Assembly (NCBI GenBank): GCA_937928685.1
Contig: CALGJU010000222.1
Location: forward strand, 1-34,795
Origin: an uncultured Granulosicoccaceae bacterium
Lineage (GTDB): Bacteria > Pseudomonadota > Gammaproteobacteria > Granulosicoccales > Granulosicoccaceae
Direction of reading: 5' to 3'
Length of the DNA: 34,795 nucleotides
Positions 6,067 to 32,506 of the stretch are shown here, piece after piece. The position numbers were made by a program, and so were the translations under genes. The notes beneath the pieces were generated by a model. The model was not told where the DNA came from. It did no database searches and saw only the letters and a list, made by a program, of their open reading frames with translations. The stretch's first letter is position 1. Each line of letters opens with the position of its first letter.

Positions 6067-6377
6067 AAATTGAATCTCCATGACATTAGTCGTCCGTGAC
6101 ATTAGGTTGCCCGCGGAAATGCGGGGTGTTGAACGGAACCAGACCGTAACACAAGGTTGCCGCGCATCCAACCAACTCGACCCTTACTGCTAACTAGGAG
6201 CCGAATTGCCGTCATTTATGCGTTAGGTATGCGCTTCAATTCCGAAATTAAGACAATAATTGCACGGTACACTTAAGCAAAACACTAATTACATCGCACT
6301 TCGCCGTGTATACTATTTGCTCGGGTGTAAGCCCATTCAGCGTCCACTTTACCCCAGCTAACCTGTCTGCTTCCGGT

Positions 6378-7528: not shown

Positions 7529-7557
7529 CCATCGAATTCCTGATTAACAGTGTACTG

Positions 7558-8520: not shown

Positions 8521-8916
8521 ATGGTTACCGGTCTTTTTAACTACTGGATAGTCGTCATTTTGATGATGGCAGGTTTGTACATTGTTATGTCGAGCGGTCA
8601 TCTGGTAAAAAAAATTATTGGATTGAATATATTTCAAACCTCAGTTTTTATATTCTTTATATCCATGGGCAAAGTTTCAGGTGGTACCGCCCCCATACTT
8701 AAAGACGGAATATCAGTCTTTAGCAACCCGTTGCCGCATGTACTTATTCTCACAGCTATTGTAGTAGGTGTTGCCACCACCGCCCTTGGCCTGGCTATTT
8801 CAGTGCGAATATATGAAGCCTACGGCACCGTGGAAGAAGATGAAATAAGCGACATGGATAAAGAAAACAGACAACGTGAGACATCTGTCAGCACGGTGGT
8901 GCTCGACAAGCAATGA
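8521..8916 (+). CDS. Cation:proton antiporter subunit C (MrpC/NuoK-like)
   Basis: 131 aa; GLYIVMSSGHLVKKIIGLNIFQTSVFIFFISMG and NPLPHVLILTAIVVGVATTALGLAI are typical of MrpC. Confidence 0.9.
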   Translation: MVTGLFNYWIVVILMMAGLYIVMSSGHLVKKIIGLNIFQTSVFIFFISMGKVSGGTAPILKDGISVFSNPLPHVLILTAIVVGVATTALGLAISVRIYEAYGTVEEDEISDMDKENRQRETSVSTVVLDKQ

Positions 8917-10388: not shown

Positions 10389-11866
10389 TGAATCACACAC
10401 TCATCTATGCAAGTTTTCTTACCCCGCTCATCGGTGGCGCACTACTCGTGTTGTTGCGCAAAAACGAAAACATTCGCGATGCGGTCAGCATTATAACCGC
10501 CACAATTCTGTTCGGCATTGTGCTGTGTTTGTACCCCACCATTCTTGCAGGTAACACTCCATCAGTCACACTTGCAGAACCCATACAAGGGCTTGGCTTA
10601 ACTTTTACCGTTGAACCACTCGGGCTTCTATTTGCAACTGTCGCATCAGGACTTTGGATACTCACCACCATTTATGCCATCGGCTATATGCGTGGTGCCA
10701 ATGAACCCAACCAATCGCGCTTCTTTTTATGCTTTGCTATTTCGATAGCGGCAGCCATCGGCATTGCGTTTGCGGGCAATTTGCTCACACTATTTGTATT
10801 CTACGAAATGCTCACCCTGGCAACGTACCCGCTTGTTACTCACAAAGGCAACGAAGATGCTCGACGTGGTGGCAAGTTATACCTCGGCATCTTGATGTGC
10901 ACATCAATCGGCTTATTGCTATTTGCTGTGCTATGGACATTCCAGCTCACAGGCACACTGGATTTTCGTGCTGGTGGTATTTTGCAGGGCAATGTCAGCC
11001 CGACAGTGGCATTAATATTAATGACGTTGTTTGCGTTTGGTACCGGCAAAGCGGCATTGATGCCGTTTCATCGATGGCTGCCTGCGGCGATGGTCGCACC
11101 CACACCGGTAAGCGCACTACTGCACGCGGTGGCGGTCGTTAAAGCTGGCGTCTTTACTATTCTAAAAGTAGTTATTTATATATTCGGCATTGATCTGGTG
11201 GCTGAAACCGGTGCTGGAAACATCGCCTTGTGGGTAGCCACTTTCACATTGGTTGCAGCCTCAATCATTGCACTAACCAAAGACAATTTAAAAGCACGAC
11301 TGGCCTATTCCACCGTCGGCCAACTGAGCTATGTTGTGGTCGGCGCTATGCTCGCCAATGCAGCAGGGATTGTCGGTGCAGCAATGCAAATCGCGACCCA
11401 CGCAATGGGTAAAATCACTTTATTCTTTTGTGCTGGTGCAATTTACGTTGCCACCAAGAAGACTGAAATCAGCGATATGCGCGGCCTGGGTTACAAAATG
11501 CCATTTACCTTCGGTGCCTTTTTTATCGGTGCTTTCAGCATAATCGGCCTGCCTCCCATGGCAGGCTCGTGGGCAAAATGGCATTTAATGATGGGCTCTA
11601 TCGATGCCTCACAATGGGTGATCGTAGCGGCACTGCTATTGAGTTCGCTTTTGAACATAGCCTATCTGATACCCGTCGCTGCACGTGCTTTCTACATGTC
11701 ACCTGAGCAGGCAGTCAACCCAGGCCGTACAGTTATAGAGGAAGCACCACTTTTTTGTGTTGTGCCTTTATGCCTGACCGCTGCTGGCTGTATCTTGTTA
11801 TTTATATTCGGTGACGCACTCGATCATTTAATTGGTCTGATTCCACTCACAAGGGCCGCTCCATAA
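10388..11866 (+). CDS. Proton-conducting NuoL/M/N-type antiporter subunit, copy 2
   Basis: 492 aa multi-TM; FVFYEMLTLATYPLV and GTGKAALMPFHRWLPAAMVAPTPVSALLHAVAVVKAG. Confidence 0.9.
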   Translation: MNHTLIYASFLTPLIGGALLVLLRKNENIRDAVSIITATILFGIVLCLYPTILAGNTPSVTLAEPIQGLGLTFTVEPLGLLFATVASGLWILTTIYAIGYMRGANEPNQSRFFLCFAISIAAAIGIAFAGNLLTLFVFYEMLTLATYPLVTHKGNEDARRGGKLYLGILMCTSIGLLLFAVLWTFQLTGTLDFRAGGILQGNVSPTVALILMTLFAFGTGKAALMPFHRWLPAAMVAPTPVSALLHAVAVVKAGVFTILKVVIYIFGIDLVAETGAGNIALWVATFTLVAASIIALTKDNLKARLAYSTVGQLSYVVVGAMLANAAGIVGAAMQIATHAMGKITLFFCAGAIYVATKKTEISDMRGLGYKMPFTFGAFFIGAFSIIGLPPMAGSWAKWHLMMGSIDASQWVIVAALLLSSLLNIAYLIPVAARAFYMSPEQAVNPGRTVIEEAPLFCVVPLCLTAAGCILLFIFGDALDHLIGLIPLTRAAP

Positions 11867-11874
11867 GCAACGCT

Positions 11875-12192
11875 ATGAATCAGAATCAACATACAAACAA
11901 TGACTCTCAAGAGCGTTCGTATTGGCTGGACAAACCCGCCACGCTGAACTTGATTATTGCCGTCCTTGTGCTCAGCTGCATTGCATTATTTGCCGTGGAC
12001 TTTTTCTATCACAAGCACGGTCACTTTGATTTTGAACAATGGCCGGGCTTCTATGCCTGGTATGGCTTTCTTAGCTACTGCGCTATTGTATTAACCGCCA
12101 AACAAATGAGAAAGTTGATCGGTCGCCGTGAAGACTACTACGAATCCGTAGACTCAGATATCAACAACGAACAAGATCATGACCAGTCTTAA
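11875..12192 (+). CDS. Small membrane protein within the mrp-like operon
   Basis: 105 aa, two predicted TM segments, charged tail; overlaps the start of the next antiporter subunit. Confidence 0.75.
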   Translation: MNQNQHTNNDSQERSYWLDKPATLNLIIAVLVLSCIALFAVDFFYHKHGHFDFEQWPGFYAWYGFLSYCAIVLTAKQMRKLIGRREDYYESVDSDINNEQDHDQS

Positions 12193-13867
12193 TCCTGCCG
12201 TAATATTTCTACTTGCAGGGCTTTTCACGCCGTTTGCAGCAGTCGGTGTACGTCGCTACATTACCCTGGCTGCGCCGTTGATCGGCTTAGCGCTATTGCT
12301 CCTGACAAATCACGGTGATCATGGCCAGATTGAGATTTTCAATCTACAACTAGTGACTTATCGACTGGACAAACTCGCATTTGTCTGGGCACTGATTTTT
12401 CATATTGCAGCGTTTATTGGTGCTTTGTATGCCTTTCACCTTAAGGACGCCACACAGCAAACTGCCGCCTTGTTTTACCAGGGCGCCGCGATCGGTGCAG
12501 TACTTGCCGGAGATTTATTAACGCTGTTCGTCTGGTGGGAGATCACCGCCATTGCGTCAGTATTTTTAATATGGGCACGCAAAACTGATCGAGCCTACCA
12601 CGCGGGCATGCGTTACCTGATTATCCAGATTGGTTCCGGCGTTATCCTGCTGACCGGTCTATTGTTATACAACAAAGATAACGGATCACTTGCGTTCAAC
12701 CACCTGGGACTTGAATCATTAGCGACCTGGTTGATCTTCATCGCCTTCGGTATCAAGTGTGCGTTTCCGCTTTTGCATAACTGGCTGCAAGACGCCTACC
12801 CTGAGGCCACCGTTACCGGTACGGTTATCCTTTCTGCGTTTACCACCAAGCTGGCGGTCTATGCGCTGGCACGCGGCTACGCAGGCACAGAGATCCTGAT
12901 CTGGATCGGCGCGACGATGACAGCCTTCCCGATCTTTTTTGCGGTCATTGAAAACGATTTACGGCGCGTGCTGTCGTACAGCCTGAACAACCAGCTTGGC
13001 TTTATGGTGGTAGGTGTTGGCATCGGCTCTGAAATGGCACTGAACGGCACCGCAGCCCATGCTTTCAGTCACATCCTGTATAAAGCACTATTGTTTATGG
13101 CGATGGGCGCTGTGCTCTATAGAGTCAAGACAATCAAAGCGTCGGAGCTGGGCGGCTTGTACAAAAGCATGCCATGGACGACTGTATTCTGCATTATCGG
13201 ATCGCTATCTATCAGTGCCTTTCCACTGTTCTCCGGATTCATTTCGAAATCGATGATTCTGACAGCGGCGGCTGTTGAACATCACACCATTGTCTGGCTC
13301 ATACTGCTGTTGGCTTCAGCCGGGGTCATGGACCACTCAGGCATTAAGATTCCGTTTTTTGCGTTTTTCGCACACGACAGCGGAAAGCGTTGCGAAGAGG
13401 CACCGAAGCACATGTTATGGGCCATGGGTATTGCAGCATTCATGTGTATTGCGATTGGCGTGTATCCTCAGGCGCTGTATCAAATATTGCCATATCCGGT
13501 GGACTACGCGCCCTACACCACCACACACGTGATTACGCAGCTTCAACTACTGCTATTTTCAGCGCTGGCGTTTGTGTTCTTATTTAAAACCGGCTTGTAC
13601 CCGCCAGAGGTAAAATCGGTCAATCTCGATACTGATTGGACGTATCGTGTCGCCGCAGTTGCTGTAATGAAACCGATAAACAGTCTTACCAGCAGATTTA
13701 CTCAATCTGTTTTTGGCGGACTGCACACCATGTGGCTAATGACCGTTACCACACTTGACCGAATGGTTGGTCCCAAGGCGTGGTTGTCGCGCAGCCTCGA
13801 TTCAACCGGCATGGTGGCAGCGACGATGGGATTGCTGTTCATGTTCCTACTGTTGTATTTGTTTTAA
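12179..13867 (+). CDS. NuoL/M/N-type antiporter subunit, copy 3
   Basis: 562 aa multi-TM; LFVWWEITAIASVFLIWARK and GIKCAFPLLHNWLQDAYPEATVTGTVILSAFTTKLAVYAL. Confidence 0.88.
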   Translation: MTSLNPAVIFLLAGLFTPFAAVGVRRYITLAAPLIGLALLLLTNHGDHGQIEIFNLQLVTYRLDKLAFVWALIFHIAAFIGALYAFHLKDATQQTAALFYQGAAIGAVLAGDLLTLFVWWEITAIASVFLIWARKTDRAYHAGMRYLIIQIGSGVILLTGLLLYNKDNGSLAFNHLGLESLATWLIFIAFGIKCAFPLLHNWLQDAYPEATVTGTVILSAFTTKLAVYALARGYAGTEILIWIGATMTAFPIFFAVIENDLRRVLSYSLNNQLGFMVVGVGIGSEMALNGTAAHAFSHILYKALLFMAMGAVLYRVKTIKASELGGLYKSMPWTTVFCIIGSLSISAFPLFSGFISKSMILTAAAVEHHTIVWLILLLASAGVMDHSGIKIPFFAFFAHDSGKRCEEAPKHMLWAMGIAAFMCIAIGVYPQALYQILPYPVDYAPYTTTHVITQLQLLLFSALAFVFLFKTGLYPPEVKSVNLDTDWTYRVAAVAVMKPINSLTSRFTQSVFGGLHTMWLMTVTTLDRMVGPKAWLSRSLDSTGMVAATMGLLFMFLLLYLF

Positions 13868-17804: not shown

Positions 17805-18006
17805 CCGCAGCTGAATCACACTGACCCACAACTAATCCGCACACGACACTATTTTCCAATCCTCACTGTCAGTCCTCACTAAACCAGCGTTTTGCTTGAT
17901 CTCATAGCGCGTTTGCCACATGCTGTCGGTGTCGCAATGCCGTCGCACTAATGACTGTCGGTGGTGCCTTGCGCTAACAATCATTGCTGCCAAAGAGAGG
18001 ATTACA

Positions 18007-19023
18007 ATGAAACTCACTACTCGCTTACTTCGTACTGGTCTTGCAGCCACCGCCTCACTTGTGCTGGCCGCCACTGCAACTGCTGCCGATATCGAACCTG
18101 CCGTGGTTTTCGATATGGGTGGAAAATTCGATAAATCATTTAACCAGGGTGTCTACGACGGCGCAGAACGATTCAAAAACGAAACCGGCCTGAAATACCG
18201 GGAATTCGAAGTCACCAACGAAGCCCAACGCGAGCAAGCGTTGCGCAGAATGGCACAACGTGGTGCCGACCCCGTACTGGGTATAGGCTTTGCGCAAGCG
18301 CCAGCGCTTGAGAAAGTCGCCAAAGAATTCCCGGACGTACGCTTCGCCATCATCGACATGGTGGTCGATCTGCCAAACGTTCGCTCCATCGTATTCAAGG
18401 AACACGAAGGTTCATTCCTGGTGGGAGCACTGGCAGCCCTGGCTTCAGAGTCTGGCAAAGTCGGCTTTGTCGGTGGCATGGACATCCCTCTCATCCGCCG
18501 CTTTGCCTGCGGTTATGAGCAAGGAGCCAAACACGTCAATCCTGACGCCGACGTAATCCAGAACATGACAGGCACAACACCTGCTGCGTGGAATGATCCG
18601 GGCCGCGGTGGTGAATTGACCAAAAGCCAATTCGAGCGCGGTGTCGATGTGGTCTATGCCGCAGCCGGTGGCACAGGTGTCGGGGTGTATCAGGCCGCCA
18701 AAGATGCCGGCAAGCTGGCCATTGGTGTTGATTCAAACCAGAACTATCTGCATCCGGGCACCATGCTGACCTCTATGCTGAAGCGCGTTGACGTTGCTGC
18801 ATACAATGTTTTTATGGATGCTAAAAATGACGAGTTCACAGCAGGCATTCAAGTGCTGGGCTTGGCCGAAGAAGGGGTTGGCTGGGCAATTGATGAGCAC
18901 AACGAATCAATGATCACCGGCGAAATGAAAGCCAAAGTTGACGAGCTATCTGAAATGATCAAGTCCGGTGACCTCACTGTGCACGACTACACCAGTGACA
19001 ACACTTGTAAAGTTGCGGGATAA
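18007..19023 (+). CDS. BMP-family ABC transporter substrate-binding protein (nucleoside-type)
   Basis: Start at MKLTTRLLRTGLAATASLVLAATATAAD signal peptide; AVVFDMGGKFDKSFNQGVYDGAERF, GVDVVYAAAGGTGVGVYQAAKD. Confidence 0.9.
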   Translation: MKLTTRLLRTGLAATASLVLAATATAADIEPAVVFDMGGKFDKSFNQGVYDGAERFKNETGLKYREFEVTNEAQREQALRRMAQRGADPVLGIGFAQAPALEKVAKEFPDVRFAIIDMVVDLPNVRSIVFKEHEGSFLVGALAALASESGKVGFVGGMDIPLIRRFACGYEQGAKHVNPDADVIQNMTGTTPAAWNDPGRGGELTKSQFERGVDVVYAAAGGTGVGVYQAAKDAGKLAIGVDSNQNYLHPGTMLTSMLKRVDVAAYNVFMDAKNDEFTAGIQVLGLAEEGVGWAIDEHNESMITGEMKAKVDELSEMIKSGDLTVHDYTSDNTCKVAG

Positions 19024-19041
19024 TACTGCTTTCATTGCTAT

Positions 19042-20637
19042 GTGTACCACTCACTGATGCAAAGCCAGAAGACACAGGGGGAAGACAGACCTCTTCCCCC
19101 TGCTAATGATCAGCTCGCTATTGAGCTAAGAAAAATCTGCAAGCGATTCGGCCAGGTACAGGCCAATCGCAACATCGATTTACAAGTCCAGCCGGGGACC
19201 ATTCACGGTATCGTCGGTGAAAACGGCGCTGGCAAATCCACACTGATGAGTATCTTGTACGGCTTCTATCAAGCTGACAGCGGTGAGATACTTATCAATG
19301 GAAAACCTGCAAAAATTAAAAGCTCCAGAGATGCCATAGATTCGGGCATTGGTATGGTGCACCAGCACTTTATGCTGGTAGAAACATTCACCGTACTCGA
19401 AAACGTATTGCTCGGCGCGGAACAAAGCGCAATGCTGGACAAGAGTGAACGCAATGCTCGCGACGTGTTGGAGCACCTGTCTGAAGAATACCAACTGAGC
19501 GTGCCACTCGATGCGATCACGGGCGAACTGCCGGTGGGTCAGCAGCAACGTACTGAAATTCTAAAGGCGCTTTATCGTAATGCCGAAATATTAATTCTAG
19601 ATGAACCGACCGGTGTACTCACACCGCAGGAAGCTGACCAACTGTTTCGGGTGTTACAGGCACTTAAAGACCGCGGTGTAACTATTATTCTTATAACTCA
19701 TAAACTGCGTGAGATTATGGATATCACTGACAACGTCTCAGTGCTTAGGTTAGGCGAAATAGTTTCAACACAGCGAACCGCTGACACCAGTACCGCCGCA
19801 TTAGCCGAGCTTATGGTCGGCAGAAAGCTTGAAACGCAAAGTTTCGAAAAAGTCGACAACCCCGATGCTGAAAACGGAATTGAAGTACACAACCTGACAG
19901 TCAAGGATGATCGTGGTCTGACTCGCATTGATAACATCAGCTTTAACGTCAAAAGAGGTGAGATTGTCGGCATTGCAGGAGTTGCAGGAAATGGCCAAAG
20001 CACGCTACTGGAAGTGCTAGCCGGCATACAATCTCCGGGCAGTGGTGAATTTGTGATTAACGGCCACAACGTCACACCGGATACAACAATCAGCCCGAAA
20101 GAAATGCGTGAAATTGGCGTACAACACGTACCGGAAGATCGCCTGAGACTCGGATTAATAAAATCTTTCAGCGCAGCAGAATCATCTGTTTTGGGATATC
20201 AGAATCGAAAAAAATTCAATTGGCGTATGTTCCTGAATATAAGAAGCATTCGCGCCGCCTGTAAAAAGTTAATGCAGGCCTTTGACGTACGCCCCCCCGA
20301 TCCGAAATTGAAATCATCCAGTTTTTCAGGTGGCAATCAACAAAAGCTGATACTTGCACGTGAACTTGAACAATCACCATCCGTGTTGTTAGTAGGGCAA
20401 CCCACACGTGGCGTTGATATAGGTGCGATCGAATTAATTCACCAGAAAATCATTGAAATTCGCGATGCTAATTGTGCCGTGTTACTGGTGTCGGTGGAGC
20501 TTGATGAAATCATGACACTCAGCGACCGGATACTCGTTATGTTTGAAGGTCGAATCGTCGGCACGATGAACGGCAGCGATGCCGACAAAACCACCCTCGG
20601 TTTAATGATGGCAAACGCCATGGACAATGCCGCGTGA
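19042..20637 (+). CDS. Nucleoside ABC transporter ATP-binding protein (two ATPase domains)
   Basis: GENGAGKSTLMSILYGFYQ Walker A, EILILDEPTGVLTPQE; second half with FSGGNQQKLILARELEQ. Confidence 0.92.
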   Translation: MYHSLMQSQKTQGEDRPLPPANDQLAIELRKICKRFGQVQANRNIDLQVQPGTIHGIVGENGAGKSTLMSILYGFYQADSGEILINGKPAKIKSSRDAIDSGIGMVHQHFMLVETFTVLENVLLGAEQSAMLDKSERNARDVLEHLSEEYQLSVPLDAITGELPVGQQQRTEILKALYRNAEILILDEPTGVLTPQEADQLFRVLQALKDRGVTIILITHKLREIMDITDNVSVLRLGEIVSTQRTADTSTAALAELMVGRKLETQSFEKVDNPDAENGIEVHNLTVKDDRGLTRIDNISFNVKRGEIVGIAGVAGNGQSTLLEVLAGIQSPGSGEFVINGHNVTPDTTISPKEMREIGVQHVPEDRLRLGLIKSFSAAESSVLGYQNRKKFNWRMFLNIRSIRAACKKLMQAFDVRPPDPKLKSSSFSGGNQQKLILARELEQSPSVLLVGQPTRGVDIGAIELIHQKIIEIRDANCAVLLVSVELDEIMTLSDRILVMFEGRIVGTMNGSDADKTTLGLMMANAMDNAA

Positions 20638-21758
20638 GCACCAGCAACGTTGAGCTACCCGCATGGATCGAAGTTATTTTGATCCCCGTACTAAACATCT
20701 GCCTCGCACTATTCTTTGCAGGGTTAATTATTTTTGCCATTGGTGAGAGCCCGCTGGAAGCAGTAGGCATCATGCTCAATGGTGCATTTGGTTACGATGA
20801 AGGTGTCGGCTACACGCTCTACTACACAACCAACTTTATATTTACCGGCTTAGCCGTCGCTATAGCTTTTCACGCACGTTTATTTAACATTGGCGGTGAA
20901 GGTCAGGCTTACATTGGTGGCCTGGGAGTCGGGCTGGCGTTCTTACTGCTTGACGGTTATCTCCCTACTGTTTTACTGCTTCCCATTGGCATCATCGCCG
21001 CCGCGTTGTTTGGTGCTGCATGGGCTTTTATACCCGCCTGGTTGCAAGCTTATCGCGGTAGTCATATTGTCATCACCACCATCATGTTCAACTTTATCGC
21101 ATCAGCTGTGATGGTTTATCTGCTGGTTAATGTACTGATTAAGCCCGGCAGCATGTCACCGGAGACGCGCGAATTCAGCCAGTCATCATGGATGCCTTTT
21201 ATGCATGAAATGCTCGCTGTTGTCGGCATTGATGTCACACGCACACCGCTCAACCTGTCTTTCATTCTTGCGTTGGTCTGCTGCCTTCTTGTGTGGATAT
21301 ATATCTGGAAAACCCGTTGGGGCTATGCACTCAGAACAGCAGGGCAAAGCGAAGCCGCGGCGGTCTACGCTGGCATTAAGCCGAAAAGAATAATCATCAT
21401 TACCATGTGCATCTCCGGTGCGCTGGCAGGTATGGTGGCCGTCAACGAAGTAATGGGCGTACACCACCGCGTGATACTTAACTTTACTGCAGGCTACGGC
21501 TTCACCGGCATTGCTGTCGCCTTAATGGGACGCAATCACCCGGTGGGAATTATACTGGCGAGTCTGCTGTTCGGTGTGTTGTATCAGGGCGGTGCCGAAC
21601 TCGCATTCGAAATGCCGAAAATTACCCGTGAAATGGTAGTAGCGATACAGGGACTGATTATTCTGTTTTCCGGCGCACTGGCACTGATGTTACGTCCCGC
21701 CATGGTAAAAATATGGCTGGCAATAATGCCTGCACGGGCAGTCGCACAGCATGGATAG
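20634..21758 (+). CDS. Nucleoside ABC transporter permease 1
   Basis: 374 aa multi-TM; FNIGGEGQAYIGGLGVG and FTGIAVALMGRNHPVGIILASLLFGVLYQGG. Overlaps the upstream stop. Confidence 0.9.
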   Translation: MSTSNVELPAWIEVILIPVLNICLALFFAGLIIFAIGESPLEAVGIMLNGAFGYDEGVGYTLYYTTNFIFTGLAVAIAFHARLFNIGGEGQAYIGGLGVGLAFLLLDGYLPTVLLLPIGIIAAALFGAAWAFIPAWLQAYRGSHIVITTIMFNFIASAVMVYLLVNVLIKPGSMSPETREFSQSSWMPFMHEMLAVVGIDVTRTPLNLSFILALVCCLLVWIYIWKTRWGYALRTAGQSEAAAVYAGIKPKRIIIITMCISGALAGMVAVNEVMGVHHRVILNFTAGYGFTGIAVALMGRNHPVGIILASLLFGVLYQGGAELAFEMPKITREMVVAIQGLIILFSGALALMLRPAMVKIWLAIMPARAVAQHG

Positions 21759-22731
21759 CCTACTTAACGCGCAAACTGTGTTGTCGACGCTTGATGCCAC
21801 GTTACGAGTATCAACCCCGCTTATTCTGTGCGCTATGGCGGGTCTGTTCTCTGAGCGCTCAGGCATCATTGATATCAGTCTTGAAGGTAAAATGCTTTTC
21901 GCAGCCTTTGCCGCAGGCGCGGTAGCAGCTGTGACCGGCTCACCGTGGCTGGCACTAGCCGCCGGCATGTTAATCAGCACCGTGCTGTCACTTCTCCATG
22001 GCTTCGCCTGCATCACTACCCGAGGCGATCAGGTCGTCAGCGGCCTAGCAATCAACGTCCTCGCGTCGGGACTCACAATTGTTCTGGGCATCGCATGGTT
22101 CTCGCAAGGCGGTCAGACACCGGCGCTGGCATCTGACGCGCGCTTCATGCCATTGGAATTACCCTTCATTGAACAGATCGGCAATCTTCCGTTTATAGGA
22201 CCCTTCTTGGAGATCGTGATCAGCGGTCACAATCTGCTGGTCTATGTAGCGCTGATCGCAGTTCCCATAACCTGGTGGGTGGTGTATAAAACCCGCTTCG
22301 GTTTGCGTCTGCGAGCAGTGGGAGAAAACCCGTTGGCAGTCGACACGGCTGGCATTTCTGTCAGCCTGCTACGCTACAAGGCTGTGGTAATTGCAGGTGT
22401 GCTATGCGGGATTGCGGGGACCTATCTGGCGATCGCACAAAACGCCGCCTTCGCTCGTGAGATGACCGCAGGACAGGGCTATATTGCACTCGCAGCAATG
22501 ATATTCGGCAAATGGCGACCGGTCCCGGCCCTTCTGGCGTGTTTGATGTTCGGCTTTCTCGATGCAGTCGCTATACGCCTGCAGGGAGTGCCACTGCCTG
22601 GTATTGGCGAGGTGCCAGTGCAGCTCATACAAGCACTGCCCTACCTGCTGACCGTGATCCTGCTGGCCGGATTCATCGGTAAAGCGGTCGCACCAAAAGC
22701 GATTGGAGTACCTTTTGCCAAAGAGCGATGA
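21751..22731 (+). CDS. Nucleoside ABC transporter permease 2
   Basis: 326 aa; LCAMAGLFSERSGIIDISLEGKMLFAAFAAG, typical of the second BMP-system permease. Confidence 0.9.
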   Translation: MDSLLNAQTVLSTLDATLRVSTPLILCAMAGLFSERSGIIDISLEGKMLFAAFAAGAVAAVTGSPWLALAAGMLISTVLSLLHGFACITTRGDQVVSGLAINVLASGLTIVLGIAWFSQGGQTPALASDARFMPLELPFIEQIGNLPFIGPFLEIVISGHNLLVYVALIAVPITWWVVYKTRFGLRLRAVGENPLAVDTAGISVSLLRYKAVVIAGVLCGIAGTYLAIAQNAAFAREMTAGQGYIALAAMIFGKWRPVPALLACLMFGFLDAVAIRLQGVPLPGIGEVPVQLIQALPYLLTVILLAGFIGKAVAPKAIGVPFAKER

Positions 22732-23131
22732 TCCAAACCATGCAGCCCTGATCAGCGCCGCACAACGTGCCATGCACAACGCCTATGCGCCTTATTCCAA
22801 TTTTCAGGTAGGTGCTGCGATCTTAGCTGAAGATGGCAATATCTACGCGGGGTGCAATGTTGAGAACGCCGCTTATCCCGTCGGCTGCTGTGCCGAAGCA
22901 AGTGCCATAAGCGCCATGGTTATGAGTGGGCAGACATCTATCGCAGCAATAGCAGTGGTTGGCGCTGGCGATGAGCTGTGTACCCCGTGTGGCGGTTGTC
23001 GACAACGAATACGGGAATTTTCCAGTGAATCCACACCAATTCTCGTTTGCGATCAAAATGGTCTGCGCCACGAAACAACCTTAGGTGAATTACTGCCCCT
23101 TTCTTTCGGGCCAGACAACCTCCAACCCTAA
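22703..23131 (+). CDS. cdd: Cytidine deaminase
   Basis: AYAPYSNFQVGAAI, GCNVENAAYPVGCCAEASAI, CTPCGGCRQ (zinc ligands). Confidence 0.93.
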   Translation: MEYLLPKSDDPNHAALISAAQRAMHNAYAPYSNFQVGAAILAEDGNIYAGCNVENAAYPVGCCAEASAISAMVMSGQTSIAAIAVVGAGDELCTPCGGCRQRIREFSSESTPILVCDQNGLRHETTLGELLPLSFGPDNLQP

Positions 23132-23276: not shown

Positions 23277-23816
23277 ATGAAAGGTATCGTATTTAACTAC
23301 TTAGGTGAAATGGTTGAGGAACAATTTGGCCTTGAAGCCTGGGACTCATTGTTGCAAAAGACCGGGCTTGACGGGCAATTTATAGCGTCTGAAACCTACC
23401 CTGACGAACAACTATTTGCTTTAGTGGCAGCCGCCAATGAAGCGACGGGTATCGAAACCAGGGAACTCATTCGATCTTTTGGTCGATTTATGCTGCCAAA
23501 CTTCAGAAAGCAGAACCCGCAGTTCTTTGAGGGTCATACCGACTTAAAGTCATTTCTGTTAACCGTAGATCGAGTAATCCACGTTGAAGTTCGAAAGCTT
23601 CACCCAGGCGCTGAGTTACCTGAATTTACCTACGATGACGAATCTGATTCAGAATTGACCATGCACTACACTTCTCCAAGAAAGCTGTGCTTTCTGGCCG
23701 AGGGGCTGATCGACGCTTCAGCAGAACATTTCAACACCCGCTACGAACTTGATCACGCACAGTGCATGCATGACGGTGCTGACTATTGCACTTTCAAAAT
23801 CAAAATTCTCACTTAG
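23277..23816 (+). CDS. H-NOX (haem-nitric oxide/oxygen binding) sensor protein
   Basis: MKGIVFNYLGEMVEEQFG... with His at residue 102 (DRVIHVEV), Pro at 115 (GAELP), and Y131-x-S133-x-R135 (HYTSPRKL), all at canonical H-NOX positions. C138, H160, C163, C171 resemble the known H-NOX zinc site. Confidence 0.93.
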   Translation: MKGIVFNYLGEMVEEQFGLEAWDSLLQKTGLDGQFIASETYPDEQLFALVAAANEATGIETRELIRSFGRFMLPNFRKQNPQFFEGHTDLKSFLLTVDRVIHVEVRKLHPGAELPEFTYDDESDSELTMHYTSPRKLCFLAEGLIDASAEHFNTRYELDHAQCMHDGADYCTFKIKILT

Positions 23817-23820
23817 TAAA

Positions 23821-24792
23821 GTGGATATAGAAGTACTTCAACGAGCCTATGAAAGAGAGCGTGAGCGCCGCAAGCAGGCTGAAAAGCTTCTGGAAGAAAA
23901 GTCCAGAGAGTTATACTTGAGTTATGAAGAGCTTGATAACTCTCATCGCCAACTCGAGCAAACTCACGACGATCTGCAAAAGCAACAAACAGAACTGGTT
24001 CAACTGATCAACGCCTATGCATCAGTGACCAATGATCTGCAGCTCGCAGCAGCGCTACAGGCAGATCTCCTACCAGAGCCCATCGTTCTCGATACACACG
24101 CAGCGCGAGGTTATTTCCAACCAGCGCAATACGTAGCAGGCGATGCCTATGACTACTTTATGCTGCCAGACGATGTGTTCGCTTTTTATATCATTGATGT
24201 TGAAGGTCATGGAACAGCGTCCGCGATGACTTCATTTGCTATACACAGCCAGCTAAACCCCAAATATAACGGTATCTGCAGGCGCAATCTCGCGGCACAT
24301 GATAACCACTCAGCGGCGGTATGCGCTACCGTGAGTGATTTAAACAATGCATTTTATCGTCAGAACTCAGCTAGCAAGTACTTCACTATGATTTACGGGC
24401 TGCTCGATCTAAAAACCGGCGAGGTCACCTGGTGTCAGGCCGGGCATCCAGCACCAATTTTCAGCACCAAAAACGGAATTAAGGAAATAGGTGACGGTGG
24501 CTTTCCGGTAGGAACGTTAGAGGATCCCGCCTTCGAAGCTTCCTCTTTTACCTTGCAATCGAAAGATCGTTTAGTGCTTTATTCAGATGGAGCTGTAGAG
24601 TGTTTTTCGAAAGAAAAAGAAATGTTTGGCAAAGCCAGGCTATTTGACCTTTTGGCTCAAAGCAGCAGTGAAGCTCCGGAGCTATGCGTTAACAATATAC
24701 AAAGCTCCTTGCTTGAATGGAATGCCAGCGATCAGTTCGAAGATGATGTCACCATACTCTTTATCGACTATTTAGCGCCACCTTCAGAATAA
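23821..24792 (+). CDS. Coiled-coil + PP2C/SpoIIE (RsbU-like) serine phosphatase
   Basis: ORF open from 23749; GTG start at 23821 proposed, 4 nt after the H-NOX stop. Motifs VAGDAYDYF, IIDVEGHGTASAM, QAGHPAP, LYSDGAVE, DDVTILF; N-terminal coiled coil. Confidence 0.9.
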   Translation: MDIEVLQRAYERERERRKQAEKLLEEKSRELYLSYEELDNSHRQLEQTHDDLQKQQTELVQLINAYASVTNDLQLAAALQADLLPEPIVLDTHAARGYFQPAQYVAGDAYDYFMLPDDVFAFYIIDVEGHGTASAMTSFAIHSQLNPKYNGICRRNLAAHDNHSAAVCATVSDLNNAFYRQNSASKYFTMIYGLLDLKTGEVTWCQAGHPAPIFSTKNGIKEIGDGGFPVGTLEDPAFEASSFTLQSKDRLVLYSDGAVECFSKEKEMFGKARLFDLLAQSSSEAPELCVNNIQSSLLEWNASDQFEDDVTILFIDYLAPPSE

Positions 24793-24878
24793 ATCCGAAC
24801 TTATCCAAATGTTGTGCAGCCCCTGCCGATCTTCAACAGCCTGGCCTGCATTATTCATGAGAATTCCATGTCTAAGAT

Positions 24879-26237
24879 CTAGGATGCTGCTCTTCCAATA
24901 CGCACGATCGGGCCAAATTGTATATACCGTAGTGACTCAAGCACAATCGCATTCGTATTTGCGGTTAGTGCTTTATTGATCTCGCCTGTCGCTTCGTATA
25001 TTCCAGCATACCACCCTTTGTTTTCATCATAGTTCTTGCCGATATAATCAAAAAGCTTGCTGGTGTAGTCGGTGTCGTATAGCGCATACCAGGCTAAAGC
25101 CGCCTTGCTGCTGAGCGTTCGGAACTCAGAAGCATCATCACCTTTCTCAGTCACAGCATTCCAGGCCTTGCCGTCGGCGAAAACCGCGTTGTAAACAAAG
25201 TATGGCGGTTGATCAATATTGTCCTCACTAACAGCGGTCAAGGTACCCGTGTTTTCAAAGCGAGACTGCTGTGCCTGATAGACACCGTATGCCAGTGATC
25301 TTGAATTGCGATCCCACCCGAATTCCAAACCATCCAACACATAAGGTTCAGAGACAATAAAGTTCAATGCATCAAATTTGTCCGGAGTACGGAGATCAGT
25401 GCCCACTGCTACGCCGTCAATCTCTACATATTCAAAATGCCGCTCGTAGTTTACGGCCTCAGACAGATCAAGCCCTGCTAACACTAGTGACTTCGCAGCG
25501 TACTCTTCGTAGCCAAGGCGCCCTTCCTGCAAATACAAAGTGACACCTTCTACATTGACATCAGCTCCCATCATCTCAGCGTTATTTACAATTGCCTGCA
25601 TATCCCAACTAGACAAGACCTGATCAATCAGCTGGGTATACTCCGGGTGCTGCCATACCAACACGTTGAATGGCACCATGATTCTGCCAATATCTATAGC
25701 AGACCACCCTACACCGCGCTCAGTGGTTTGATTGTCATACGTGGTCATAGATGCTGTCGCTGTGCTGTACACCTTATTGGGTAACTTATCTTCAAACAGA
25801 GGCAATGCAGCCATTGTCTTTAATACCTTTGTAAGGCGATTACCGAACTCTGTGTTGTCGATAATTTCTAAATCATAGGCAGAAATCATGGCCAGCAAAT
25901 AAGACGCTGTGTCCCACAGCGTGGCTGCAGTATAGCCATCAACGGAGTTGACGAGACCTGTATCCGCATTGGTATTATTTTCAAAGTACGTCCAGGCTAC
26001 CCTGGCCATTCGCACTTCATCATCTGTCAGCGCGCGCTGCTCACGCAGCGGAATATTTTTTTCTTCAGTCAGATTGATAAGACCAGCCGATGCTATTGCA
26101 CTGTATTCATTCATCACATTGGCCTTTTGTGGCTTCCACTGTTCCAGACCAAACACGGTACCAAACGCCAGTACGATCCCGATCAGGAACACAATACTGC
26201 CACGGGCTTTTTTAAGGTTGTCTTTGAAATGACTCAT
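24879..26237 (-). CDS. DUF3131 domain protein, membrane-anchored
   Basis: N-terminal TM (IVFLIGIVLAFGTVFGL), then ARVAWTYFENNTNADTGLVNSVDGYTAATLWDTASYLLAMISAYDL...LPNKVYSTAT. Overlaps the upstream GT2 gene by 4 nt. Confidence 0.85.
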   Translation of the reverse strand: MSHFKDNLKKARGSIVFLIGIVLAFGTVFGLEQWKPQKANVMNEYSAIASAGLINLTEEKNIPLREQRALTDDEVRMARVAWTYFENNTNADTGLVNSVDGYTAATLWDTASYLLAMISAYDLEIIDNTEFGNRLTKVLKTMAALPLFEDKLPNKVYSTATASMTTYDNQTTERGVGWSAIDIGRIMVPFNVLVWQHPEYTQLIDQVLSSWDMQAIVNNAEMMGADVNVEGVTLYLQEGRLGYEEYAAKSLVLAGLDLSEAVNYERHFEYVEIDGVAVGTDLRTPDKFDALNFIVSEPYVLDGLEFGWDRNSRSLAYGVYQAQQSRFENTGTLTAVSEDNIDQPPYFVYNAVFADGKAWNAVTEKGDDASEFRTLSSKAALAWYALYDTDYTSKLFDYIGKNYDENKGWYAGIYEATGEINKALTANTNAIVLESLRYIQFGPIVRIGRAAS

Positions 26238-28114
26238 GCGGCCTTCCTTATGATCGTATCAGCGACAGGTATTGCACTATCGTTTAACTGTTCAGTATCA
26301 CGTGGCTTCCAGATCGCTGAATAGACCATGCCACTCATCGCGATGACGTTAATCATGCCCCAGAACGTGTTCAGAAACAGTCCATCAAAACCATACGCAG
26401 CGCTGCCGGATATCTGCCTAACCCATGCATAAATTAACGCCCCAAGCGTTAACAGAATGACAAATATCTGTGGCCAGACAAGATGAAGAAATACACCATC
26501 CTGTCTGGATTTCGGTGTAACGGGAAAGCTGATTTTTTTACCACGTATAACGGTCCACAACGCTTTTAAGTTGATCGGGAAAAACGCCAGATAACTAAAT
26601 TTCGATTTAGTTGTCGCAAGCCCCCAGAGTGCCAGCATAGAACCCAGCTCCGTCATAAAAAGAAACGGAAATATGTGCTTATAAAAATCAAGTGAGTAAG
26701 CACTGACCGGAGCGATGGAAAACAGAAGATAAATTATCGGTGCTGCCAAAAACACCACATTCCAGATAGCACCAAAGTATGACCATACGGTTGAACCATA
26801 CAAAATCCGCTGTGGCCAACTCAGGCCTTTTCTAAACAGAAAATCGTCATTCACAGCGATGTCAAGCGTACCACCGGCATACTTAAAGCGCTGAATCGTC
26901 CATGTCAGCAGATCTTGCGGTGACAACATTTTTGATTCTACTTCAGGATGCATCACAGACTTCCACTGTCTGGAGGTATCAGAATGCAGTTCAATAGAAG
27001 TGTATATATCTTCAGACACATGAAACTTGTACGGGGTAAATTCCCGCTCTAGAAACACTTGCTGACCAATGTGCTGCACTACAGAATCGTCTGTGCCTGC
27101 CTCACCTGTCAGTTGTTTTAGCCGGTTGCTTCGTTTATCTGTTTCATTCAGCACTGCACTGCCAAAGTTAGTCAAAGCGGTGCTCATTGTCGCTTCTCTG
27201 CGATGGATCGAACCCGCGCCGCAGCAAAACGATGCATTTGCCCAGTTACGTCGACGCTGGATAACGTCGTAAAACATTTTCGGATCATTAACGAACGGAT
27301 CTTCTCCAACCACAATTTCACCAAAAAACCGGCTAACGACTCTGTCTATGGCTCGACCGGGCGCTCCAAAACGTGTCAATATCTCAGACAGAGGGCGCCC
27401 TTGCGGAAGATCAAAAAACCATTGCGGTGTTTGCACCCACGCCACATTCGGATCTTTAAAGTAGCCGAGCGTATGTTCAAGGATGGTCGGGAACGGACGT
27501 GTGTCAGCATCACAAATAACAATAAAATCACCACTGGTCTGCTCCATCGCATTACGCATATTACCGGCTTTAAAACCGATATTATTATCACGGGTAATAT
27601 AGTTGCAGCCCAATTCGTCTGCCAGAGCTCGCATGGCAGGCCTGTTACCGTCATCGAGTACGTGGATGCGTATATCTATGCTGTGGGGGTAATGAATTTT
27701 TTTTGCGTCTTCAAGGCTTAACCGTACCAGTGAGACGTCTTCATCGTAAGTTGGAAAAAAAACATCCACCAGTATAGGACGTTGAACAAATGACGGTCCC
27801 TCATCTGATACCTGGCATTCACTGATGCAGGCGGGTGCTGATTGCTTTGTGGTATCAGCCACGTGCCAGATATTGAAGACATAAAAGAGCAGACCAATGT
27901 ACGCCCCGGTCTCTGCAATTACCAGAGGCAGCGAAAACCATAACGCCTCAAAATTCAACGAAGAAGTCCACCTCCAGTGGAGATACCATGCCCCAGTAAA
28001 CACCGCAATCAATAAGCAAATCTGACCGATTGCATGAACGGTGGGGTTTATTTCCAGCGGCGGCGGTGGCTTACGATCTTCAAACTTTTTAAAGTAGGGA
28101 ACTGAATTATCCAC
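26234..28114 (-). CDS. Family-2 processive glycosyltransferase, cellulose-synthase-like (BcsA-like, no PilZ)
   Basis: Multi-TM; DVFFPTYDED, HVLDDGNR, CDADTRPFP (DxD), HVSEDIYTSI (TED-like), QRFKYAGG (QxxRW-equivalent). 626 aa with no recognisable C-terminal PilZ domain. Confidence 0.9.
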   Translation of the reverse strand: MDNSVPYFKKFEDRKPPPPLEINPTVHAIGQICLLIAVFTGAWYLHWRWTSSLNFEALWFSLPLVIAETGAYIGLLFYVFNIWHVADTTKQSAPACISECQVSDEGPSFVQRPILVDVFFPTYDEDVSLVRLSLEDAKKIHYPHSIDIRIHVLDDGNRPAMRALADELGCNYITRDNNIGFKAGNMRNAMEQTSGDFIVICDADTRPFPTILEHTLGYFKDPNVAWVQTPQWFFDLPQGRPLSEILTRFGAPGRAIDRVVSRFFGEIVVGEDPFVNDPKMFYDVIQRRRNWANASFCCGAGSIHRREATMSTALTNFGSAVLNETDKRSNRLKQLTGEAGTDDSVVQHIGQQVFLEREFTPYKFHVSEDIYTSIELHSDTSRQWKSVMHPEVESKMLSPQDLLTWTIQRFKYAGGTLDIAVNDDFLFRKGLSWPQRILYGSTVWSYFGAIWNVVFLAAPIIYLLFSIAPVSAYSLDFYKHIFPFLFMTELGSMLALWGLATTKSKFSYLAFFPINLKALWTVIRGKKISFPVTPKSRQDGVFLHLVWPQIFVILLTLGALIYAWVRQISGSAAYGFDGLFLNTFWGMINVIAMSGMVYSAIWKPRDTEQLNDSAIPVADTIIRKAA

Positions 28115-28121
28115 AAGTCAT

Positions 28122-28571
28122 TCACACCGTTGCCGGTGAAAGATCGAAATTCAGCTTATAGATATTCTTACCGTGCGATCTTCTGTAACTGACTTCGTCA
28201 CAAGCTGACTTAATCAACTGAATACCCCAGCCGGACTCCGGAAGGTCAGCAATACTCATGTCAACACCAGGCATTCTAACGTTATCCCTGGCGTATTCAT
28301 TGGCTACTGCACCGTCAATCTCCTGCCCACGATCCGACACGGTCACAGTAAAGGTCGGATCCACAAAGCGGCAATTTAGTTCAATCAAGCCATCTACAGG
28401 AATCCGTTGCGAATAGTTGATTATGTTGTTCAATAACTCCACTACCGCGAGCTCCACTTGATTCAATGAAGTTTCTGCGTCATCACTGGACAACACACAC
28501 AGATGTCGCACCAGCTTTCCCACGTTTGCAATTTCTTTGCAGTCGTACTTTATGGCAATTTTTATATTCAT
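28122..28571 (-). CDS. RsbW-like HATPase (anti-sigma/serine kinase-type) regulator
   Basis: Start at MNIKIAIKYDCKEIANVGKL; N-box-like ELAVVELLNNIINYSQ, VSDRGQEID, ESGWGIQLIKSACDEVSYRR. Confidence 0.85.
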   Translation of the reverse strand: MNIKIAIKYDCKEIANVGKLVRHLCVLSSDDAETSLNQVELAVVELLNNIINYSQRIPVDGLIELNCRFVDPTFTVTVSDRGQEIDGAVANEYARDNVRMPGVDMSIADLPESGWGIQLIKSACDEVSYRRSHGKNIYKLNFDLSPATV

Positions 28572-28599
28572 GGCTACCCCATGGAAACGGAAGGTCGAG

Positions 28600-28938
28600 C
28601 TACGCTGCCTGCTTGCTAAAGCAGGTATCAAAGTCATCGTGAATCTCGAAAATTCTGTCCATATGAGTGAGAGTAAAGACTTCTTTCACATTGTCGTGCA
28701 CGTTACAGAAAGCCAGACCGCCATTTTCCTGCACCGCCTTATAACATCCAATCACAGCACCAAGTCCGCTGCTGTCCATAAACTCGACATTCGCCATATC
28801 AATGACAATCGATACTTTGTGCTGTTGGGATAAATCAGTCACACACTGGCGGAATTCGGGCGCCGCAATCGAGTCCAGACGGACGATGCCCGGTCGAACC
28901 ACAACGCACTTTTCAAAAAGTTCATGCTCAAAATTCAT
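28600..28938 (-). CDS. STAS-domain anti-anti-sigma (RsbV/SpoIIAA-like) protein
   Basis: Start at MNFEHELFEKCVVVRP with an upstream AGGAAA RBS; VSIVIDMANVEFMDSSGLGAVIGCYKAVQENGG with conserved phosphorylatable Ser in DSSGLG. Confidence 0.9.
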   Translation of the reverse strand: MNFEHELFEKCVVVRPGIVRLDSIAAPEFRQCVTDLSQQHKVSIVIDMANVEFMDSSGLGAVIGCYKAVQENGGLAFCNVHDNVKEVFTLTHMDRIFEIHDDFDTCFSKQAA

Positions 28939-29180
28939 ATGAGGTTTCCTGTCACTACACGGCGATGTATCAGTCCAACGGCTAACACTCAACGCACTTG
29001 AGCCTGTTTAGTGCCTTTTCTTTGACATTGCCTCGTGCACCAAAACGCAACCTGCAAATAGTGAAACCAGTGGCACAAACAGTTGAGACCTGATTCACTC
29101 TTTCTACCACCCGGCAATCCTTAGGCACCAGAAATGCACTAGCAAGGTCACGCCTTGAAAGATGTTCTTTAGGACTCCAG

Positions 29181-30761
29181 ATGCAATCGGAAAACCGTTC
29201 AAAACCAACACCATACAAAACTATATCTAAATCAAATGAATCACATAGATATAAGTCCCCGTGGTCATTGATTGCCGGTGGAGCGCTGGTATTTGCTTTG
29301 ATTTTCACAAGCGGCTACAACGCCAGACATCTGCTATCCGGTAGCGATGAAAACGGGTTGACACAACCCAAACTGTCCGCGGCCAAAAGCGGTGAAGAAA
29401 TTTCTATTGATCAGCTATTCAAGCAGAACAAAAACAGCCACGACAGCTGCAACGCAACGGACTCCACTGCCCAGTCCTGTCTAATTCAACCTGTGGCAAA
29501 TAGTTGTACTGTCGCAGACGAGGAACTATGTCATGCAGACCTCGATGTAGCTAAAACCGCATGGAAGTATTTTGAAAATAACTACAACCCGGAAACTGGA
29601 TTAGTTAACGCCGTTGACAACTACCATTCAACCACCATGTGGGATACCGGCTCAGCGCTGGCCGCGACCATTACCGCCTACAACCTCGGGCTCATTGACT
29701 CCCGGTCATTTGACGAACGTATTATGGCCATGTTTAAAACACTTTCAAGCATGCAGCTCTTTAACGGTGAAGCGCCAAACAAAGTTTACAACACCAAAAC
29801 AGTACAGATGGTTGACTATGGCAATCAGGCGAGCGACCTGGGAATCGGCATATCGATTCTAGATTTAGCCCGCCTTGTATCCTGGCTCAATACCCTAAAC
29901 TGCATGCACCCGCAGTATCACAGTGCCATCAACGCAACACTTTCCCGGTGGGACTATTCACGGTTAGTTAAAGACGGAAGCATGTACGGTATGGCTCGTG
30001 AGGGCGATAACATTGAGGTACTGCAGGAAGGCAGGCTGGGCTACGAACAATATGCAGCCAAGATTCTGGAGCACGTAGGCTTTGATTTATCAGTGGCATC
30101 AGATTACGAAAACGAATTCAGAAGTAACACCGATATTCTCGGTGTATCCATTGCGCACGATACGCGCGACCCACGGCAATTAGGTGCAAACAATTACGTG
30201 GTCACTGAATCGTACGCAATGGATGCAATGGAGCTGGGGCTTGATGATAAAAACAGCAATTTGCTACGCAATATTTTTGAAGTGCAAAAGAAACGCTGGC
30301 AGCAGACCGGCATCGTTACCGCTATCTCCGAAGACAACATCGATCAGGAACCCTGGTTTTTATATAATTCAATTTTCAATTCGGGCCTCGCCTGGCAGAC
30401 CACCAACAGCAGCAACACCAGCTACGATCACCTGAAAACTGTATCTGTAAAAGCGGCACTGTCAATGGCTATGCTCTACCCGGAAGACGAATACAGCCAG
30501 GTACTTACCAGTGCTGTTGCACACGCTTATGATCCTGACAAGGGCTGGTACTCCGGAATCTATGAAAACGGGGCGGGCTACAACAAGGCTTTTACCGCCA
30601 ATACCAACGGTGTAATTTTAGCCGGGCTGCTATACAAAAAATACGGTGCACTTATCCCTCATTGTCAAAGCTGCAGCCGCCCCCTCAAAATTAAAAGCCC
30701 GTTATTGGAAAAAGGATCTGGCCAAGAGCAGTGTACCGTCTGCACCATTGCACAAAACTAG
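29181..30761 (+). CDS. Second DUF3131 domain protein, membrane-anchored, Cys-rich
   Basis: TM anchor near the N-terminus; AKTAWKYFENNYNPETGLVNAVDNYHSTTMWDTGSALAATITAYNLGLID parallels the 24879 gene. C-terminal CQSC...CTVC pair. Confidence 0.85.
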   Translation: MQSENRSKPTPYKTISKSNESHRYKSPWSLIAGGALVFALIFTSGYNARHLLSGSDENGLTQPKLSAAKSGEEISIDQLFKQNKNSHDSCNATDSTAQSCLIQPVANSCTVADEELCHADLDVAKTAWKYFENNYNPETGLVNAVDNYHSTTMWDTGSALAATITAYNLGLIDSRSFDERIMAMFKTLSSMQLFNGEAPNKVYNTKTVQMVDYGNQASDLGIGISILDLARLVSWLNTLNCMHPQYHSAINATLSRWDYSRLVKDGSMYGMAREGDNIEVLQEGRLGYEQYAAKILEHVGFDLSVASDYENEFRSNTDILGVSIAHDTRDPRQLGANNYVVTESYAMDAMELGLDDKNSNLLRNIFEVQKKRWQQTGIVTAISEDNIDQEPWFLYNSIFNSGLAWQTTNSSNTSYDHLKTVSVKAALSMAMLYPEDEYSQVLTSAVAHAYDPDKGWYSGIYENGAGYNKAFTANTNGVILAGLLYKKYGALIPHCQSCSRPLKIKSPLLEKGSGQEQCTVCTIAQN

Positions 30762-30796
30762 CTGCGTAGCAGATGATTTAACGCAATTCGTCGATC

Positions 30797-32506
30797 ATGG
30801 CATCTCTTTATAGGCAACTATATGGTGTGCTCTGCTGCACGGCATTGTCTTTGTCATTCGCAGGCCCACTCAACAGTGACACGCTTTTATCTCACATCGA
30901 AAATCTTCATTGCGCTGGTGATCAGGAAACTGCTGCAGATTACATAAACAAAATACACCAGCTAGACCTGTTTTCACCCGGCCTGCCGAACGAATCGCCC
31001 GACACTCACAACCCATCGTTGCGCGCAGTGACGCTTGATAGACTGCTTATCACCTTATATGAAAATTCGAAAAAGCACCCTGGCAATAAAGATCTGATAG
31101 AACAGACGGTTATAAGGTGGAATTACTGTAGCGTTATAGATAACGGACAACTATACAACCACACCAAGGATCAAAGAGTTGCATCTTCATATGCCGACTC
31201 TCACAAAAACTGGCGCGGCTTTAAATCATTCGGATTGATTCCTACAAACGATAATGTGGAGCGCTTTGACTTTACCACCCCCTATAAAAATTCACTCATA
31301 AGACCACTTGCAGATATACAGTTGCTGCAAAGCTATATAAACCACTGCCTTCCACACCCTGACGATGAACACTTGTACAGATCTTTCGGCAGCAACTTTA
31401 TCAGTCGTCTGGTGCCGGTCGAAAGAAAAACCAACATTAAAACAATACACCACGAAACCTTCGAATGCGGCCCGCGTCCACTCACGTCCGTGGCTCCCTT
31501 ACCCACTTACCCCGGTACGGATAACAACCAGCAAAACGATAAACCAAAAGCGACAATGACATCCAAACCAGTGAACATCACTGAGCGCCCATCACAACTG
31601 GCAAACCGAACTCAGGATGACACCAGTGACAACTTACAACATCATACTGTCGATTATAAAACACTGCCGACACCGATAGTGGCCGCAGCCAAACCCGTTA
31701 ACGATAACGCCTCTGTTCAAGTAGACATTCCGGAAAGCGAACTTGTTGTGGCGAAAGAACGCGGTAGCACCCGAGTGCCCGTAAACGGTGTACCGGTCGA
31801 AATACACTCTATCCAGACACTAAAAAACACATCGGCTGATGTGGATGAGCCAACCGCCGTTGTCGTTATAGGCCCCTCTGGTGGAGGCTCCGTGACTACC
31901 ACCAATATCAATAAATCGAGAGGGCTTAGTGGCTCTATAACCTTGGAAAACAAGTCATTCCAGGCCGATCAGACCAGTCTTAAACTGGCATTCTCTTATA
32001 AGCCTTTGCAAGACAGCTATTGGTTTTTACGCTCTGCATTTAATATCTCAAACCAGGCTAATCCGATCACCTATTCCTGGGGTATTGGGTACGACGACTG
32101 GCACTCAGGGACATGGGGAATACAGCTAAACCACTGGGGTCCGTTAAGCAGTGGTGACGGGCTGGATGTTGACAATGCCGTGCTTGAGGCTAGCTACAAA
32201 ATAAAAAGTAGCTGGCTTACAAAAAACAAGCTGGCCAGTTCTATCGCCCTGTCTTCACCGATCTCAGGAAATCCTTCACTGAGCTGGGGTTGGTCCTGGA
32301 GCCCGTTTTCAGACTGGTTTACACGGACAACTTTCACTAAGGCAATAAGTGGCGGAGGACTGGACTGGTCTTATGGATTTGGCTTTACCCGCTATACGCC
32401 GTCATCGCTCAGTGTGGAATACAACAACTGGGGAGTGAACCGATTTCCAAATGCCAATTTCAAAGCAAACGGGCAGCTAAGCCTTATTTATCGGTGGGCG
32501 TTTTAG
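30797..32506 (+). CDS. Putative outer-membrane beta-barrel protein with Pro/Thr-rich linker, candidate polysaccharide exporter/OM partner
   Basis: N-terminal hydrophobic signal (LYGVLCCTALSLSFAG), helical N-domain, low-complexity linker, then repeated aromatic beta-strand pattern (YSWGIGYDDW, WGWSWSPFSDW, WSYGFGFTRY) ending ...LSLIYRWAF with terminal Phe. Confidence 0.7.
   Translation: MASLYRQLYGVLCCTALSLSFAGPLNSDTLLSHIENLHCAGDQETAADYINKIHQLDLFSPGLPNESPDTHNPSLRAVTLDRLLITLYENSKKHPGNKDLIEQTVIRWNYCSVIDNGQLYNHTKDQRVASSYADSHKNWRGFKSFGLIPTNDNVERFDFTTPYKNSLIRPLADIQLLQSYINHCLPHPDDEHLYRSFGSNFISRLVPVERKTNIKTIHHETFECGPRPLTSVAPLPTYPGTDNNQQNDKPKATMTSKPVNITERPSQLANRTQDDTSDNLQHHTVDYKTLPTPIVAAAKPVNDNASVQVDIPESELVVAKERGSTRVPVNGVPVEIHSIQTLKNTSADVDEPTAVVVIGPSGGGSVTTTNINKSRGLSGSITLENKSFQADQTSLKLAFSYKPLQDSYWFLRSAFNISNQANPITYSWGIGYDDWHSGTWGIQLNHWGPLSSGDGLDVDNAVLEASYKIKSSWLTKNKLASSIALSSPISGNPSLSWGWSWSPFSDWFTRTTFTKAISGGGLDWSYGFGFTRYTPSSLSVEYNNWGVNRFPNANFKANGQLSLIYRWAF

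Follow-up and report, generated by a model that had tools for sequence, protein, structure and literature searches.

A polysaccharide locus with its own partner switch

The window analyzed here, a stretch of 34,795 nucleotides from an uncultured Granulosicoccaceae bacterium, carries eight genes of interest at positions 23277–32506. Pfam and NCBIfam profile searches of the window assign all eight, and their identities, order and strands agree with those given by the initial annotation of this DNA. On the forward strand, the gene for an H-NOX protein, a predicted haem-based NO sensor (23277–23816; Pfam HNOB E = 9.5e-44), is followed by one for a SpoIIE/PP2C-type phosphatase (23821–24792; Pfam SpoIIE E = 1.4e-37), which most likely starts at a GTG at 23821, 4 bp past the H-NOX stop. 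The reverse strand then encodes a DUF3131 protein (protein a; 24879–26237; Pfam 1.9e-141), a BcsA-like processive GT2 synthase (26234–28114; Pfam), an RsbW/SpoIIAB-type HATPase (28122–28571; Pfam HATPase_c_2 1e-17) and a single-domain STAS protein of the RsbV/SypA type (28600–28938; Pfam STAS 1e-16, TIGR00377 2.5e-20), with the starts of the last two, at 28571 and 28938, read from the sequence. Divergent from this STAS operon, and again on the forward strand, lie the genes for a second DUF3131 protein (protein b; 29181–30761; Pfam 1.1e-131) and for an outer-membrane barrel protein that ends in Phe (30797–32506). An open reading frame of 108 residues upstream of STAS (28985–29308), unmatched in Pfam and overlapping the beginning of the second DUF3131 gene, may be spurious. 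As read from the sequence, the region directly upstream of H-NOX (17920–23131) holds likely nucleoside uptake genes (a BMP-like binding protein, an ABC ATPase, two permeases and a cytidine-deaminase-like protein), and 6306–13867 holds an apparent Mrp-type Na+/H+ antiporter gene set. Nucleoside-uptake-like genes also lie beside the H-NOX/SpoIIE pair at locus L019 and in genome G383.

The signaling proteins retain the residues expected of their families. H-NOX aligns over its full length with Shewanella H-NOX, its closest solved relative (2kii/4u9b), and in this alignment keeps His102 (IHVEV), YTSPR and the Cys and His residues of the zinc site. The HNOB fold, with a proximal His and the YxSxR haem motif, scores 149.6 bits against a Pfam cut-off of 25.5, and we predict that the protein binds haem and NO and serves as an NO sensor. 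SpoIIE, a PP2C/SpoIIE-type phosphatase whose catalytic domain spans about 24169–24768, has its metal-binding motifs intact (AGDAYD, DVEGHG, YSDG and DDVT). The HATPase carries the N-box of RsbW-type proteins (ELLNNIINYS) and is predicted to be the serine kinase of STAS. The lone STAS domain has a phosphorylatable serine in the motif DSSG (FMDSSGLG), Ser56 counted from the ATG at 28938, and DSS is retained in the loci scanned.

The remaining proteins resemble a synthesis and secretion apparatus. The GT2 protein is similar to cellulose synthase catalytic subunits (CelA model 1.6e-63; BcsA matches in the PDB), and Pfam finds in it no match to PilZ, the domain of c-di-GMP control in BcsA. DUF3131 protein a is modeled (pLDDT 89) as an N-terminal helix anchor and an (alpha/alpha)6 barrel, closest in fold to GH144-type beta-1,2-glucanases (Foldseek E = 2e-10, TM 0.60) and more distantly similar to BcsZ and PssZ in the fold search. 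Invariant acidic residues are present in the DUF3131 proteins; catalysis on beta-1,2-glucan is putative. In the literature searched, each paper that mentions DUF3131 does so once, and no functional study was found. The C-terminal 235 residues of the outer-membrane protein are modeled (pLDDT 76 overall; start disordered) as a 12-stranded barrel (about 31922–32503) with FapF, NanC and KdgM as porin-like neighbors in the fold search, and homologs of this protein occur in other loci.

To follow the locus beyond the window, DUF3131 proteins were used as the sole queries over the named genomes, which yielded 462 relatives, from which 80 loci were kept; neighbors were scored with profiles built from the window proteins and counted on loci of at least 20 kb (n = 52). 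GT2, STAS, HATPase and SpoIIE are all encoded in 51 of these 52 loci, and because the loci were found through DUF3131 alone, the association exceeds what chance would give. The gene-neighborhood check proposed in the initial annotation thus ties the partner switch to GT2 and DUF3131 across phyla. Carriers range over Gamma-, Beta- and Deltaproteobacteria and Ignavibacteria/Kapaibacteria, and include Granulosicoccaceae, Thiotrichaceae, Shewanella, Vibrionaceae, Ferrimonas, Methylophilaceae, Sphaerotilus, Desulfoluna, Ignavibacteria and Kapaibacteria. A GH2-type protein is a further frequent neighbor, in 36 loci, as are a nucleotidyl transferase in 34 and a GH9 cellulase in 21. Full-length DUF3131 matches are otherwise rare in a sample of the whole class (2 of 369 genomes). 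Partial matches in proteins of about 2,000–2,900 residues were set aside; their length and fold match suggest that they are cyclic beta-glucan synthases. The Zetaproteobacteria stalk cluster (PMC8250860) and the sheath genes of Leptothrix and Thiothrix were weighed as a known identity for the locus, and neither matched in the descriptions and match lists covered.

The H-NOX/SpoIIE pair itself adjoins GT2 and DUF3131 in four genomes, the window and those of loci L017, L018 and L019, so that the conservation on which the initial annotation had staked its proposal is present beyond the window. In G383 each half of the arrangement runs to the end of a contig, as would fit the gene order of the window, and for this reason the H-NOX/SpoIIE half likely adjoins the GT2/DUF3131 half there as well.

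A kinase-type segment on the phosphatase

By Pfam, the window SpoIIE has no receiver domain of the kind found in SypE. In its place stand 61 residues (23821–24003, forward strand), a proposed H-NOX docking segment, that are homologous to the N-terminus of H-NOX-associated histidine kinases; the similarity covers residues 1–61, reaches 57% identity and ends where the dimerization domain of the kinases starts. The DHp and catalytic domains of those kinases are absent. An HMM of the segment, built from 14 H-NOX-neighbor kinases only and run over all open reading frames of 96 loci, matched those kinases and the SpoIIEs that adjoin H-NOX, and no other SpoIIE. Among 369 genomes of the class, which hold 32 H-NOX genes, the segment occurs 22 times; in 16 of these occurrences an H-NOX gene is no more than 2 kb away, against about 0.002 such adjacencies expected by chance. 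This genome-wide rarity and the adjacency to H-NOX rule out a chance coiled-coil similarity. The segment is not strictly specific to H-NOX, since the six other class-wide matches (four GGDEF proteins and two others) are not beside an H-NOX gene, and it may be a signaling coiled coil rather than the contact site itself. GGDEF-type proteins with the segment were seen at L135, L136, L143 and L144 in genomes G200 and G070, in neither of which H-NOX was found; another sensor may use the segment there.

Within the family (48 genomes), all 22 copies of the segment are beside H-NOX, 12 on SpoIIE and 10 on kinases, and in ten family genomes H-NOX stands beside a short kinase. At L152 (G374:C113) a stop codon interrupts an H-NOX gene that neighbors a short kinase, and the genome has another H-NOX copy. 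In 21 other locus-carrying genomes, Aliivibrio and Vibrio among them, the segment is beside H-NOX in 18 of 18 cases and absent from the three genomes that lack H-NOX. HahK and HqsK, from relatives of these Aliivibrio and Vibrio, have been reported as H-NOX partners (PMC12369376, PMC8738867).

Sensor and phosphatase have different ancestries. The parent form of the phosphatase carries an N-terminal receiver, present in 53 of the 59 segment-less SpoIIEs of our tree set. In an unrooted maximum-likelihood tree of 71 phosphatase domains, confined to the sequences gathered, the 12 segment-bearing SpoIIEs form one clade (98/85) that, relative to the sequences sampled, is sister to the REC-SpoIIEs of the family's own polysaccharide locus (17 together, 100/99). 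A tree of 76 H-NOX proteins, likewise unrooted and confined to gathered sequences, places the partners of the same 12 together with seven H-NOX proteins of short kinases (98/94), although not as a single clade. The simplest reading is a single exchange, in which the sensor half would have come from an H-NOX/short-kinase pair and the output half from the polysaccharide locus.

The link between H-NOX and SpoIIE drawn in the initial annotation thus gains independent support from the swapped segment, a feature that annotation had missed, but as a direct coupling it is limited, as far as sampled, to Granulosicoccaceae. Thiothrix loci have H-NOX, a hybrid kinase and an Hpt protein beside a REC-SpoIIE. 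In loci of this type the Hpt gene (L032:2132–2485 and L030:5523–5924) lies between H-NOX/hybrid kinase and REC-SpoIIE, a position that suggests a full phosphorelay into SpoIIE.

The switch also has a second association. In four genomes (G403, G404, G388 and G406) the H-NOX/SpoIIE/HATPase set stands at an unrelated Wzx/Wzy-type cluster for a sulfated polysaccharide, and STAS is encoded a few kilobases from the set. Genes of this cluster include those for a sugar transferase, a sulfotransferase and a nucleotidyl-transferase-like protein, to which the annotated cases add a flippase and polysaccharide-export genes. SpoIIE and HATPase are fused in one protein in G406, and part of this second arrangement is found on a short contig in G408. 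At L192:6144–7679 a single protein unites SpoIIE, HATPase and an H-NOX-type segment, an architecture like that of SypE but for the missing receiver. Two genomes, G398 and G393, depart from both patterns: their swapped SpoIIE is away from any polysaccharide cluster and the GT2 locus retains its own REC-SpoIIE, and for these reasons the H-NOX/SpoIIE module may serve other targets there.

From NO to glycan: proposed pathway and alternatives

We consider it probable that the locus is a polysaccharide synthase–secretion unit (GT2, periplasmic DUF3131 and outer-membrane barrel) under the control of a switch formed by SpoIIE, STAS and an RsbW-type kinase, to which H-NOX would have been joined by the exchange described above. 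Taken together, the segment swap, the adjacency to H-NOX, the two ancestries and the second switch-bearing branch point to a likely pathway in which NO would act through H-NOX, SpoIIE and STAS on the glycan without a histidine kinase. We envision that SpoIIE of this family exchanged the parental receiver for the segment that is presumed to bring histidine kinases into contact with H-NOX. H-NOX would bind residues 1–61 of SpoIIE and change phosphatase activity depending on NO; SpoIIE would remove phosphate from Ser56 of STAS, opposing the kinase; and unphosphorylated STAS would permit glycan output, as SypA does. SypA of Vibrio fischeri is active when unphosphorylated (PMC4517449), and HahK of this species is inhibited by HnoX (PMC12369376); by analogy we lean slightly toward NO-bound H-NOX inhibiting the phosphatase and lowering polysaccharide output. 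More tentatively, the 61-residue exchange could have moved H-NOX control to a PP2C phosphatase such that NO gates STAS phosphorylation directly, with STAS acting post-translationally on a synthase that lost or never had c-di-GMP control.

The switch could instead be a classical anti-sigma module fed by the H-NOX/SpoIIE pair, in which the HATPase sequesters, and STAS releases, a sigma factor that is encoded elsewhere and directs transcription of the polysaccharide genes among others. The HATPase and STAS do score as RsbW and anti-sigma antagonist, and both RsbU/V/W of B. subtilis and HsbR/A of P. aeruginosa (PMC6482189) affect sigma-factor availability. However, no sigma factor was recognized among the frequent or conserved neighbors in the 80 loci, for which reason the sigma route is not favored for the window, and SypA, functionally the nearest precedent, reportedly works downstream of syp transcription (PMC12369376), through a mechanism described as unknown (PMC4517449). 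We regard the anti-sigma route as rather doubtful. It is improbable that H-NOX here mainly senses redox or zinc state, or O2, rather than NO: redox sensing through zinc sites such as the one retained in the window protein has been discussed (PMC8738867), but the nearest relative is the NO-binding Shewanella H-NOX and both the haem ligand and YxSxR are kept. Signaling through an unlinked histidine kinase, with the place beside SpoIIE an operon accident, is very improbable. H-NOX does pair mostly with kinases or c-di-GMP enzymes (PMC8738867), and a short kinase is its neighbor in ten genomes of the family; against this, the kinase-type segment is borne by SpoIIE itself in 12 of 12 cases, and the window genome (assembly about 77% complete) yielded no further copy of it.

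Relation to known systems

The component parts of the locus are of known kinds. The nearest precedent for the proposed kinase-free pathway is HnoX–HahK and SypE/SypA of V. fischeri (PMC12369376, PMC4517449), where an H-NOX-family NO sensor likewise has a kinase-type partner, a PP2C/kinase/STAS switch controls a biofilm polysaccharide and the H-NOX/kinase genes of Aliivibrio relatives bear the same N-terminal segment. There, however, HnoX targets a histidine kinase, and SypE belongs to the response regulators, whereas the window has neither the kinase nor the receiver and carries the segment on the phosphatase; its polymer machinery is of the GT2/DUF3131 and not the syp type. With RsbU/RsbV/RsbW and SpoIIE/SpoIIAA/SpoIIAB the window shares a PP2C phosphatase, a STAS protein with DSSG and a HATPase kinase with an N-box, but it has no sigma factor in the locus and its input is a haem protein. 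The haem-sensing stressosome of Vibrio brasiliensis similarly feeds a haem gas sensor into a STAS/kinase/RsbU-type system, although that sensor is a globin fused to STAS that senses O2, and the system has neither H-NOX nor polysaccharide genes (PMC4976288). On the output side, the BcsA-like GT2, the BcsZ-like (alpha/alpha)6 protein and the outer-membrane barrel recall BcsA/BcsZ/BcsC of cellulose synthesis, and relatives of the locus add the GH9 cellulase and nucleotidyl transferase; in contrast to the cellulose system, no PilZ domain and no BcsB-like gene were seen in the window, and BcsZ is a more distant match to the DUF3131 fold than beta-1,2-glucanases are.

What is apparently new is the joining of H-NOX, by exchange of a segment, to the PP2C phosphatase of a polysaccharide-locus switch, a step that would skip the histidine kinase. 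We rate this combination as new because its parts are known and yet no described H-NOX/PP2C pair appeared in the portion of the literature covered by searches for H-NOX with SpoIIE, anti-sigma or STAS, and neither SpoIIE nor STAS is named in the neighbor list of an H-NOX review. A Dinoroseobacter paper that has both H-NOX and SpoIIE mentions them in unrelated contexts.

The locus represents a polysaccharide unit that carries its own partner switch and is conserved over several phyla, and loci with so few genes make the targets of STAS proteins such as SypA approachable. If the proposed coupling is correct, a single input segment would be common to histidine kinases and a PP2C phosphatase through natural rewiring, and would provide a short, testable definition of what makes an effector respond to H-NOX.
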